Origin: Burkholderiales bacterium PBB1
GTDB taxonomy: Bacteria; Pseudomonadota; Gammaproteobacteria; Burkholderiales; Burkholderiaceae_C
Length of the DNA stretch: 64,000 nt
Direction of reading: 5' to 3'
NCBI GenBank assembly: GCA_002255905.1
Contig: NKIN01000004.1
Span: 1 to 64,000, forward strand
Shown here piece by piece: positions 34,734 to 37,545 of the stretch; position 1 is the first letter of the stretch, and each line of letters opens with the position of its first letter. Made by a program: the position numbers and the translations under genes. The notes below the pieces were generated by a model, which saw only the letters and a list, made by a program, of their open reading frames with translations, did not search any database and was not told the origin of the DNA.

Positions 34734-36209
34734 ATGATTTCGCGCGAACCCACCCTCGAACGTCTGGCCGTTGCCCAGCAGTTGCTGATCGAGCCTTTCG
34801 GTCTGAGCGAGGCGTCTCTGTCGCGCGCCTTGCAGGCCATCGCCACCCACCGCATCGACGACGCTGATCTGTATTTCCAGTACACCCGCAGCGAGGGCTG
34901 GAGCCTGGAAGAGGGCATTGTCAAGAGCGGCAGCTTCGGCATCGACCAGGGCGTGGGCGTGCGTGCGGTGGCCGGCGAGAAGACGGCCTTCGCCTATTCC
35001 GACGACATCTCCGAAGCCGCGCTGATGGACGCAGCGCAGACGGTGCGCACGATCGCAGCGGCTGGCCAGAGCCGCCGAGTCAAGGTCAACACCGCGCGCA
35101 AGGTGGCCGGCAGCCGCCTGTTGTACGCCTCGATGGACCCGATTGCCTCGCTGGACAGCACGCAGAAGGTGGCACTGCTGGAGCGGGTCGAGAAGATGGC
35201 GCGGGCCAAGGATCCGCGCATCAAGCAGGTGATGGCCAGCCTGTCGGGCGAGTACGACGTGGTGCTGGTCGCGCGTGCTGACGGCACCCGGGCAGCCGAT
35301 GTGCGCCCCCTCGTCCGCATGAACGTCACGGTGATTGCAGAGCAGACCATCAAGGGCGCAGTGCGCCGCGAGACCGGCAGCAGTGGCGGCGGCGGCCGCT
35401 TCGGATACAGCCACTTCGACGACGCGCTGCTGGAGCGCTACGTCAGCGACGCGGTGAACGCGGCGCTGACCAACCTCTCCTCGCGCCCCGCGAAAGCCGG
35501 CGAGATGAGTGTGGTGCTCGGTTCCGGCTGGCCGGGTGTGCTGCTGCACGAAGCGATCGGGCACGGCCTGGAGGGCGACTTCAACCGCAAGGGATCGAGT
35601 GCGTTCAGCGGCCTGATCGGTCAGCGCGTTGCGGCCAAGGGCGTGACGGTGCTCGACGACGGCACGCTGCCTGACCGGCGCGGCTCGCTGAACGTCGACG
35701 ATGAAGGCAATGCCAGCCAGCGCAATGTGCTCATCGAAGACGGCATCCTGAAGGGCTACATACAGGACGCGATGAACGCGCGGCTGATGGGCGTCAAGCC
35801 CACCGGCAATGGCCGCCGCGAAAGCTACGCCGCGGTGCCGATGCCCCGCATGACCAACACCTACATGCTGTCGGGCGACAAGACGAAGGAAGAAATCATC
35901 GCGGGGCTCAAGCGTGGGTTGTACGCGTCGAACTTCGGCGGCGGTCAGGTCGATATCACCAGCGGCAAGTTCGTGTTCTCGGCGAGCGAGGCGTTCTGGG
36001 TCGAGAACGGCAAGATCCAGTACCCGGTCAAGGGCGCCACCATCATCGGCAATGGCCCGGACGCCCTGACGCGGGTCAGCATGATCGGCAACGACATGAA
36101 GCTCGACAGCGGCGTCGGCACTTGCGGCAAGGAAGGCCAGAGCGTTCCGGTCGGCGTGGGCCAGCCTACGCTGAGGCTGGAGGGCCTGACCGTCGGCGGC
36201 ACCGCCTGA
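34734..36209 (+). CDS. tldD: Metalloprotease TldD
   Basis: 491 residues, normal length. The metal motif is H272-E-A-I-G-H277 (HExxxH) in [51 protein letters not shown] and [21 protein letters not shown] are TldD features. TldD pairs with TldE to degrade unfolded peptides and mature modified peptides; tldE is not in the window. TACAAT (34702-34707) upstream is a good -10-like hexamer. Separated from rsmI by 56 bases. Confidence 0.95.
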
Positions 36210-36232
36210 GGCGGGTGGTCGGACCAGCGTGT

Positions 36233-36238
36233 TACATT
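36233..36238 (+). promoter_or_regulatory. Putative -10 element (TACATT) for the aroG leader transcript
   Basis: TACATT lies 7 bases before the leader-peptide ATG at 36246. A transcript starting there would have almost no 5' untranslated part before the leader peptide. No good -35. Confidence 0.4.
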
Positions 36239-36245
36239 GATCCGG

Positions 36246-36317
36246 ATGAAGTACCACTTTGCCTTCTTCTGCTTTTGGTTCTCAAACCGCACCGGCGGCG
36301 GAGAGGCCAGCGCATAG
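36246..36317 (+). CDS. Phenylalanine-rich leader peptide of the DAHP synthase gene
   Basis: A 23-codon frame beginning MKYHFAFFCFWFSNRTGG and ending TAG at 36315-36317. Five of codons 5-12 are Phe (36258, 36264, 36267, 36273 and 36279), with one Tyr and one Trp beside them, the classic control-codon cluster of an attenuator leader. The stop lies just past a segment that can pair with the terminator arm (36292-36298). It sits 112 bases before aroG. Too short for usual gene finders. Family assignment is inference from position, codons and RNA structure. Confidence 0.8.
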   Translation: MKYHFAFFCFWFSNRTGGGEASA

Positions 36318-36354
36318 ACAGACTGAAGCGCAGACCGAATCTCAGCACCGCCGG
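36292..36354 (+). promoter_or_regulatory. Predicted antiterminator arms of the aroG attenuator
   Basis: CCGGCGG (36292-36298) is the exact reverse complement of CCGCCGG (36348-36354), the 5' arm of the terminator. Pairing of the two would block the terminator. A ribosome stalled on the Phe codons (to 36281) leaves 36292-36298 free, while one reaching the stop at 36317 covers it. This is a standard attenuation layout, inferred from sequence only. Confidence 0.65.
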
Positions 36355-36376
36355 GCCTCCCCCGGCGGTTTTTTTT
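36348..36376 (+). terminator. Rho-independent terminator of the aroG attenuator
   Basis: CCGCCGGG (36348-36355), loop CCTCC, CCCGGCGG (36361-36368), then eight Ts (36369-36376). A perfect 8-bp GC stem and T-run, the clearest intrinsic terminator in the window. It lies before, not after, a gene, so it acts as a switch. Confidence 0.9.
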
Positions 36377-36429
36377 CGACTGCGCCGACTTCCAAACCCC
36401 CCTGATCGACCCGCCCCCTGGAGCCTCCC

Positions 36430-37545
36430 ATGCCTCACCAGAATGCCGCCTCCGAAGGCCGCTACGGCCTCATCGAAAAGACCAGCGAGACTGACAACCA
36501 GCGCATACGCGACGTCACGCCGCTGCCGCCGCCCGAGCACCTGATCCGCTTTTTCCCGATCCGCGGCACCGCCATCGAAACCCTGGTGGCCGACACCCGG
36601 CAGCGCATCCGTCGGATCATGTCCGGTCAGGACGATCGGTTACTGGTCATCGTCGGTCCGTGCTCGATCCATGACCCGGCCGCCGCGCTCGACTATGCCC
36701 GCCGACTCAAGGAGCAGCGCGAACGCCACGCAGACACGCTGGAAGTGGTGATGCGGGTCTACTTCGAGAAGCCACGCACCACCGTCGGCTGGAAGGGCCT
36801 GATCAACGATCCCTACCTCGACGAGAGCTACCGCATCGACGAAGGGCTGCGCATCGCGCGCCAATTGCTGGTGGAGATCAACCGCCTGGGCATGCCAGCG
36901 GGCAGCGAATTCCTCGACGTGATCTCGCCGCAATACATCGGCGACCTGATCAGCTGGGGCGCGATCGGAGCGCGCACCACCGAAAGCCAGGTGCACCGGG
37001 AACTGTCGTCGGGGCTGTCGGCGCCTATTGGGTTTAAAAATGGAACCGACGGCAACATCCGCATCGCCACCGACGCGATCCAGGCCGCCGCGCGCCCACA
37101 CCACTTCCTGAGTGTGCACAAGAACGGTCAGGTCGCGATCGTCGAAACCGCCGGCAACCCCGACTGCCACCTGATCCTGCGCGGCGGCAAGGCGCCCAAC
37201 TACGACGCCGTGCACGTGGAGGCGGCCGGCAAGGACCTGGAGGCGGCCAAGCTGCCGGGCACCTTGATGGTCGATTGCTCACACGCCAACAGCAGCAAGC
37301 AGCACGACAAGCAGATCGACGTGGCACGTGACATCGCCGCCCAGTTGGCCGGCGGTAGCCGCCGCATCTTCGGCGTGATGGTCGAAAGCCACCTGAACGC
37401 CGGCGCGCAGAAGTTCAGCCCGGGCAAGGACGACCCGTCGAAGCTGGCCTACGGGCAGAGCATCACCGATGCCTGCATCGGCTGGGACGACACGCTGAAG
37501 GTGCTGGACACCCTCGGCAGCGCGATCAAGGCACGCCGCCGCTGA
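36430..37545 (+). CDS. aroG: 3-deoxy-7-phosphoheptulonate synthase (class I, AroG/AroF/AroH type)
   Basis: 371 residues. GGAG lies 7 bases before the ATG. Conserved segments: RLLVIVGPCSIHDPAAALDYA near residue 75, RVYFEKPRTTVGWKG, FLDVISPQYIGDLISWGAIGART split across about 160-182, GFKNGTDGN, and VDCSHANSSK near 280. It condenses phosphoenolpyruvate and erythrose 4-phosphate, the first step of the shikimate pathway. The Phe-rich leader and attenuator upstream predict control by charged tRNA-Phe, so this is likely the Phe-responsive isozyme. An intrinsic terminator overlaps its stop codon. Confidence 0.95.
   Translation: MPHQNAASEGRYGLIEKTSETDNQRIRDVTPLPPPEHLIRFFPIRGTAIETLVADTRQRIRRIMSGQDDRLLVIVGPCSIHDPAAALDYARRLKEQRERHADTLEVVMRVYFEKPRTTVGWKGLINDPYLDESYRIDEGLRIARQLLVEINRLGMPAGSEFLDVISPQYIGDLISWGAIGARTTESQVHRELSSGLSAPIGFKNGTDGNIRIATDAIQAAARPHHFLSVHKNGQVAIVETAGNPDCHLILRGGKAPNYDAVHVEAAGKDLEAAKLPGTLMVDCSHANSSKQHDKQIDVARDIAAQLAGGSRRIFGVMVESHLNAGAQKFSPGKDDPSKLAYGQSITDACIGWDDTLKVLDTLGSAIKARRR

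Follow-up and report, generated by a model that had tools for sequence, protein, structure and literature searches.

Ribosome-mediated attenuation of transcription is a classical mechanism, and in the pheL-type design of E. coli a run of Phe codons is combined with mutually exclusive antiterminator and terminator structures. The aroG locus of Burkholderiales bacterium PBB1, which lies within the 64,000-nt stretch of contig NKIN01000004.1 analysed here (the window), resembles the E. coli pheL-pheA and pheST attenuators in its Phe codon run and its alternative antiterminator and terminator. However, the E. coli attenuators act on pheA and pheST and not on a DAHP synthase gene. These two systems are mentioned in PMC11802643. 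In C. glutamicum, aroR encodes a leader with a Phe-Tyr-Phe motif before the DAHP synthase gene aroF and works by ribosome-mediated attenuation (PMC11802643, PMC4046766), with aroR-aroF answering to Phe limitation and not to Tyr availability (PMC11802643). Like aroR, the window locus has a leader peptide with Phe and Tyr before a DAHP synthase gene; however, C. glutamicum belongs to another phylum, Trp is unmentioned in the portions of these sources used here, and the likeness is one of description. In S. meliloti, transcription of trpL-trpE(G) begins at the leader AUG itself, making trpL a leaderless leader peptide gene (PMC7298713). A start at the leader AUG is likewise predicted for the window, whereas trpL is a Trp leader of trpE(G) in Alphaproteobacteria and the window codons are those of Phe, Tyr and Trp. 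In addition, a putative attenuator precedes a DAHP synthase-tyrA operon in two Vibrio species (PMC1173090), conserved complementary triples occur in trp attenuators of Actinobacteria (PMC1262725), and in gammaproteobacterial lineages TyrR and TrpR are described as aromatic regulators (PMC5343134). Titles and abstract openings revealed no Burkholderiales aroG leader; surveys (Vitreschak et al. 2004 and the lists of PMC2965389) could contain one, and the words "phenylalanine" and "DAHP" are absent from the main text of PMC2965389. The combination of three aromatic residues with a probable leaderless start is unusual.

In the window, a 220-nt gap separates tldD (34734-36209) from aroG. We interpret this region as a ribosome-mediated transcription attenuator that would control aroG according to how fully the aromatic tRNAs, tRNA-Phe foremost, are charged, a reading to which we assign a probability of roughly 0.88 (Table 1). 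A short ORF dense in aromatic codons precedes a biosynthetic gene, with an intrinsic terminator before this structural gene. The 23-codon frame described in the sequence-only reading is exact to the base, with five Phe (codons 5, 7, 8, 10 and 12), one Tyr (codon 3) and one Trp (codon 11). The GC terminator also lies where that reading had placed it, its stem of nine pairs (eight of them GC) being formed by ACCGCCGGG (36347-36355) and CCCGGCGGT (36361-36369), followed by eight Ts (36369-36376), and aroG indeed starts 53 nt past the last T, at 36430. Segment 2 is located inside the leader ORF, and its CCGGCGG core is complementary to CCGCCGG at 36348-36354, which segment 3 shares with the terminator 5' arm; the pairing proposed for 36292-36298 is therefore borne out as complementarity in the sequence. 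The promoter-like TGTTACATT did not figure in the earlier description.

Table 1. Features of the tldD-aroG intergenic region and of aroG in the window
Feature	Position	Strand	Basis
Probable extended -10 promoter element TGtTACATT, TGTTACATT	36230-36238	+	sequence; box shared among related loci
Leader peptide ORF, 23 codons, MKYHFAFFCFWFSNRTGGGEASA, stop TAG	36246-36317	+	translation, related leaders, profile matches
Aromatic control codons 5-12 (F A F F C F W F)	36258-36281	+	sequence; stalling model
Segment 1, UUGGUUCUC; predicted partner GAGAGGCCAG, which overlaps segment 2	36275-36283	+	predicted fold
Segment 2, antiterminator 5' part, CCGGCGGCGGAGAGG; core CCGGCGG 36292-36298	36292-36306	+	comparison; fold
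Segment 3, antiterminator 3' part: UCUC (36340-36343) and CCGCCGG	36340-36354	+	
Intrinsic terminator, 9-bp stem, 5-nt loop, eight Ts	36347-36376	+	sequence; terminator type conserved in 37-locus alignment
GGAG, likely Shine-Dalgarno sequence of aroG	36420-36423	+	sequence
aroG, class I DAHP synthase, 371 aa	36430-37545	+	sequence, relatives

The evidence that this element is more than chance is comparative. In a sample of 80 of the 588 aroG-related loci, a leader ORF followed by a terminator precedes aroG in 63, in addition to the window. Among the remaining 17 loci, L028 begins too near a contig end to judge, four (three Polynucleobacter records and a similar one) have aroG directly after tldD, two are Cupriavidus loci (L038 on chromosome 2, and L042), and the last ten come from records titled as other groups, among them Planctomycetota, Rhodocyclus and Enterovibrio. 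In the four loci where aroG directly follows tldD (L030, L034, L035 and L070), a TTAAAATA-like box lies a few nt before the aroG ATG. Neither a leader nor a terminator was seen at these loci, and aroG itself may be leaderless and unattenuated there. At E<=0.01, a profile (A1) built from 56 leader peptides finds matches in 168 of the 200 genomes searched from the window's family, in 123 of 141 genera; it misses some true leaders (L100 and L104, whose genomes have no profile match). Among the 150 leaders listed (149 genomes, with 19 further matching genomes outside the list), 27 have no AroG listed, and each of the 123 comparable listed leaders (122 genomes) lies 90-207 nt upstream of aroG on the same strand. 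Class-wide, the profile matches four of 274 genomes at E<=0.02, three of them within the family (the window's own genome included) and the fourth borderline (E=0.02). Among order-level loci outside the family, a leader precedes aroG in five of nine (L106-L109 and L114, not L110-L113); an order-wide profile search of 150 genomes at E<=1 matched 46 genomes, with eight places at E<=0.002, and most of the E<=1 matches, being weak and short, were presumed to be chance; this search was left out of the counts. The leader goes with aroG, since it is still present in the 22 of 63 leader loci that have no TldD C-terminal motif in the 900 nt upstream. The Phe leader and attenuator of aroG put forward in the sequence-only reading are thus well supported by the family-wide matches, the linkage to aroG and the conserved pairing core described below. 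An absence of conservation, which that reading had named as grounds for rejection, is not seen in the family overall, but it does hold for eight of the 12 same-genus loci.

Within the genus, the element is present at four aroG loci (the window, L093, L094 and L095) and missing from L086-L092 and L096, including the closest relative (97% AroG identity). In seven of these element-less loci, tldD and aroG are spaced by 42-47 nt with no hairpin-plus-T-run terminator in the gap, and L087 has only 60 nt upstream, beginning like the end of tldD. The window stands beside L086, which lacks the element, in both the aroG tree and the tldD tree (bootstrap 100 and 65; L087 in the aroG tree only). The leader region of the window is 79-82% identical to the three same-genus leaders, and its aroG differs by 14-16% from the same three; these figures show no sign of recent transfer, and a recent regain of the leader by the window was discarded. 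The distribution points to either several losses or an old regain in the genus.

The segment that follows the control codons can pair with the terminator 5' arm across most of the related loci, the series GGCGG/CCGCC/GGCGG (segment 2, terminator 5' arm and 3' arm) occurring in 78 of 81 and the GGCGG core after the aromatic block being absent from L006, L014 and L107. In the 64-locus set, the core follows the aromatic block in 62 loci. Counted from the initial base of the final aromatic codon, it starts after 11-20 nt in 61 of these 62 (6 nt in one), a spacing that we take to approximate the leading edge of a stalled ribosome. The flanks of the core are mostly CCGGCGG/CCGCCGG in Comamonadaceae-type loci and CTGGCGG/CCGCCAG in Burkholderia types, and AGGCGG/CCGCCT in L075 and L076. 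At the position adjoining the core, standard pairs are formed in 64 of 78 loci (shuffle mean 51.4, a count reached in 0 of 2000 shuffles), the position beyond it gives a weaker signal (56 of 78, shuffle mean 52.3, reached in 88 of 2000), and pairing at the other three flanking positions of the 78 loci is at the chance level of the shuffles, which ignore relatedness, the flanking covariation tracking clades. The core GGCGG/CCGCC is invariant by the way it was counted and thus yields no covariation signal.

When cut before the 3' arm, the RNA of 36292-36360 is predicted to fold 36292-36298 onto 36348-36354 and GAGA onto UCUC. The fold of the 141-nt region is unexceptional (z -1.76, with 12 of 200 shuffles equally stable), and single-sequence folding was therefore dropped as proof. 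For 37 aligned loci, RNAalifold recovered the terminator only, with 0 of 10 pairs changed on both sides, and found no consensus hairpin between segments 1 and 2; the sequence of segment 1 is largely conserved in this alignment, its pairing lying outside the consensus. The element has no above-threshold match in Rfam 15: no family reached the gathering score in the window region, where two of the three sub-threshold matches lie on the terminator, and 20 related loci gave no match at the gathering threshold. The best Rfam match in the window, at 36323-36376, is the Burkholderia sRNA ncS54; it rests on the terminator hairpin and scores 16.9 bits, where the gathering score is 43.

The leaders are distinguished by their reading frame and amino-acid make-up. 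Over codons 1-17 of the 64 leaders, aromatic residues make up a fraction of 0.408 in frame 0 versus 0.147 and 0.133 in the other frames. In 75 distinct leaders from 81 loci (the 64 plus 17 further), the 605 positions of the aromatic block comprise 319 Phe, 133 Tyr and 59 Trp, an aromatic total that is biased upward because the block is bounded by aromatic ends and the loci were picked for aromatic content. The other block residues are Ala (34), Gly (20), Ser (13), His (9), Thr (9), Arg (5), Cys (3) and Ile (1), with no Leu and no Val in the 75 leaders. Tyr occurs in all 75, encoded by both TAT (58) and TAC (75), and Trp in 59. That Leu, Val and Ile are almost lacking, although each lies one base change from Phe, is harder to ascribe to this sampling bias and argues for selection acting on aromatic residues as a class and not on Phe alone. 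Trp is missing from the first 17 codons in 16 of 64 leaders, including the ten Oxalobacteraceae-type leaders. The window leader has Cys where the three same-genus leaders have Tyr, and its Tyr remains only at codon 3. Outside the aromatic block, the peptides differ. The leader at L014:2338-2415, MRTTVRYHFWHFHIQHLTGAGVANA, has four His amid its aromatic codons and no intact GGCGG core, with the terminator present.

The TGTTACATT element ends 7 nt before the leader AUG, and transcription should therefore start at or next to the A of this AUG. A scan of up to 100 nt upstream of 81 leaders returned 72 TANANT boxes, 48 of them with a gap of 6-8 nt to the AUG; the extended form TGnTANANT stands at a 6-8 nt gap in 44 of 81 loci and at 6-9 nt in 48. 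A Shine-Dalgarno-like 4-mer before the AUG was found in none of the 44 box-bearing loci and in one of the 37 others. Given the distance of the box from the AUG and the lack of such a 4-mer, the leader mRNA is probably leaderless in the loci of the 44-locus group. A consensus promoter scan of the window region returned no sigma-70 promoter. In many Burkholderia and Oxalobacteraceae-type loci, inspected by eye, TATAAA or TATAGT lies ~25-40 nt upstream. Two studies, one on B. cenocepacia (PMC4603805) and one on C. metallidurans (PMC7563307), report leaderless mRNAs; their main texts are free of the string "attenuat" and do not name aroG.

With a promoter directly before the leader, the mRNA would probably start at the leader AUG, and the first ribosome would load without a Shine-Dalgarno sequence. 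A ribosome waiting at a Phe, Trp or Tyr codon would leave segment 2 (CCGGCGGcgGAGAG), just ahead of it, free to pair with segment 3 (UCUC..CCGCCGG), preventing the terminator and allowing aroG to be transcribed. Should the ribosome pass the aromatic codons without pausing, it would cover segment 2, segment 3 would pair with the terminator 3' arm, and transcription would end before aroG. The signal would be a shortage of charged tRNA-Phe, and perhaps of charged tRNA-Tyr and tRNA-Trp as well. In this scheme the layout of the parts, their conservation, the tie to aroG and the type and place of the codons are established by the sequences, whereas the start of the transcript, the alternative folding inside the cell and how each amino acid acts are predictions.

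To model this switch, the ribosome footprint was masked at each leader codon in turn. For a transcript that stops short of the 3' arm of the terminator, we then computed how probably CCGCC pairs with RNA upstream of it, and codons were regarded as permissive when this antiterminator probability (P) was at least 0.6. Across 64 loci, 430 of 453 aromatic codons were permissive in this folding model, versus 113 of 660 codons past the block. Permutation of residues within leaders gave a mean permissive fraction of 0.594 (maximum of 500 permutations, 0.656) against 0.949 observed, and in 47 of 64 loci the last permissive codon coincided with the last aromatic codon or lay at most one codon away from it. 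For the window, P was ~0.97 for A-site codons up to 12 and dropped from codon 13. Averaged over the 64 loci, P was 0.95 when the ribosome stalled on aromatic codons, 0.72 when it stood at the stop codon and 0.64 when there was none, and aromatic stalling exceeded the no-ribosome state in 46 of 64 loci and the stop state in 47. The outcome is sensitive to the footprint: a ribosome at the stop codon of the window leader gave P 1.0 with an upstream footprint of -16 and 0.04 with -19, and for a ribosome at the last aromatic codon the mean P fell from 0.82 to 0.61 (window 0.97) when the leading edge was set at +15 in place of +13. Folding with and without a leader ribosome, a check suggested in the sequence-only reading, gave a divided answer: stalling at aromatic codons keeps the antiterminator, but in the model the window RNA also formed the antiterminator without a ribosome (P 0.97). 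Within this footprint-sensitive model, the first two switch steps are supported, in that a stall at the control codons would free the antiterminator and moving on would hide it, whereas the default-off state of the textbook scheme, in which pairing of segments 1 and 2 would bring about termination when the leader is not translated, is not reproduced either in the window or in the 64-locus mean.

The best-scoring solved relatives of the encoded AroG are E. coli-type Phe-sensitive AroG chains, and the protein keeps the FLSV stretch that holds E. coli Ser211, a residue with a role in Phe binding. An AroG-like paralogue in the genome (L002, 55% identical, about 1320 onward) directly follows another gene, and no leader or terminator was seen there by eye. 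TrpR had no match in the genome. Upstream of the genes for prephenate dehydratase and two chorismate-binding enzymes, whose starts were crudely guessed and one of whose upstream stretches was short, there was no 9-codon window with at least four aromatic codons (or three Trp) and no five-T run.

Two readings would deny or extend the role of the element as a cis-acting attenuator. The hairpin might be the terminator of tldD, which ends at 36209, upstream of the leader, the ORF being a product of chance. This is highly implausible and contradicted by the comparative data, as the leader is conserved along with its promoter box and antiterminator, even at the 22 loci without a TldD motif upstream, and the seven element-less same-genus loci with a short tldD-aroG gap do without a hairpin-plus-T-run terminator. 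Alternatively, the ~130-nt RNA released at the terminator, or the leader peptide, could act in trans, besides or instead of in cis. The predicted layout is that of S. meliloti trpL, where the RNA begins with the AUG and the products rnTrpL and peTrpL act in trans (PMC7298713); nevertheless, the divergence of the peptides outside the aromatic block and the tie of the leader to aroG make such an action improbable here.

Within the cis-acting attenuator, the readings differ in the amino acids that would be sensed. If only tRNA-Phe charging matters, Tyr and Trp would be tolerated fillers or be kept for RNA pairing. This reading, to which we give close to an even chance, is in line with C. glutamicum AroR, where only Phe limitation alters aroF transcription despite a Phe-Tyr-Phe leader (PMC11802643), and with Phe as the commonest block residue, the kinship of the window AroG to Phe-sensitive AroG, the loss of the mid-block Tyr from the window leader, and the location of the window Trp codon inside segment 1, which may pair. 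It is at odds with the presence of Tyr in every distinct leader and of Trp in most, the use of both Tyr codons, and the rarity of the residues one base from Phe except Tyr (Leu 0, Val 0, Ile 1, Cys 3, Ser 13). In addition, Trp is placed elsewhere in the block in L010, L033 and L084, and such shifts in position speak against its conservation for pairing alone. The sequence-only reading had considered a mixed aromatic response; the block composition makes a mixed Phe/Tyr/Trp response of the window attenuator more likely, whereas the indifference to Tyr of AroR, the nearest tested analogue (PMC11802643), counts against it. In its fullest form, the mixed reading is a leaderless pan-aromatic attenuator, in which one peptide would sense Phe, Tyr and Trp, and whichever is short would set the first step of the shared pathway. 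Such an attenuator would be family-wide in Burkholderiaceae (in the GTDB sense, as inferred here), may stand in for TyrR- or TrpR-type regulators, and could be lost within a genus. We hold this fuller form tentatively, at somewhat less than even odds.

If it acts as a ribosome-mediated attenuator responding to aromatic tRNA charging, the element could be one of the main controls, at the level of transcription, over how much carbon enters the shikimate pathway in a large bacterial group. The natural losses inside one genus provide ready comparisons, and the probable lack of a 5' UTR raises the question of how a ribosome loads in time on so short a nascent RNA. A leader for three amino acids before their shared first step would offer a test of how one ribosome combines several tRNA signals.
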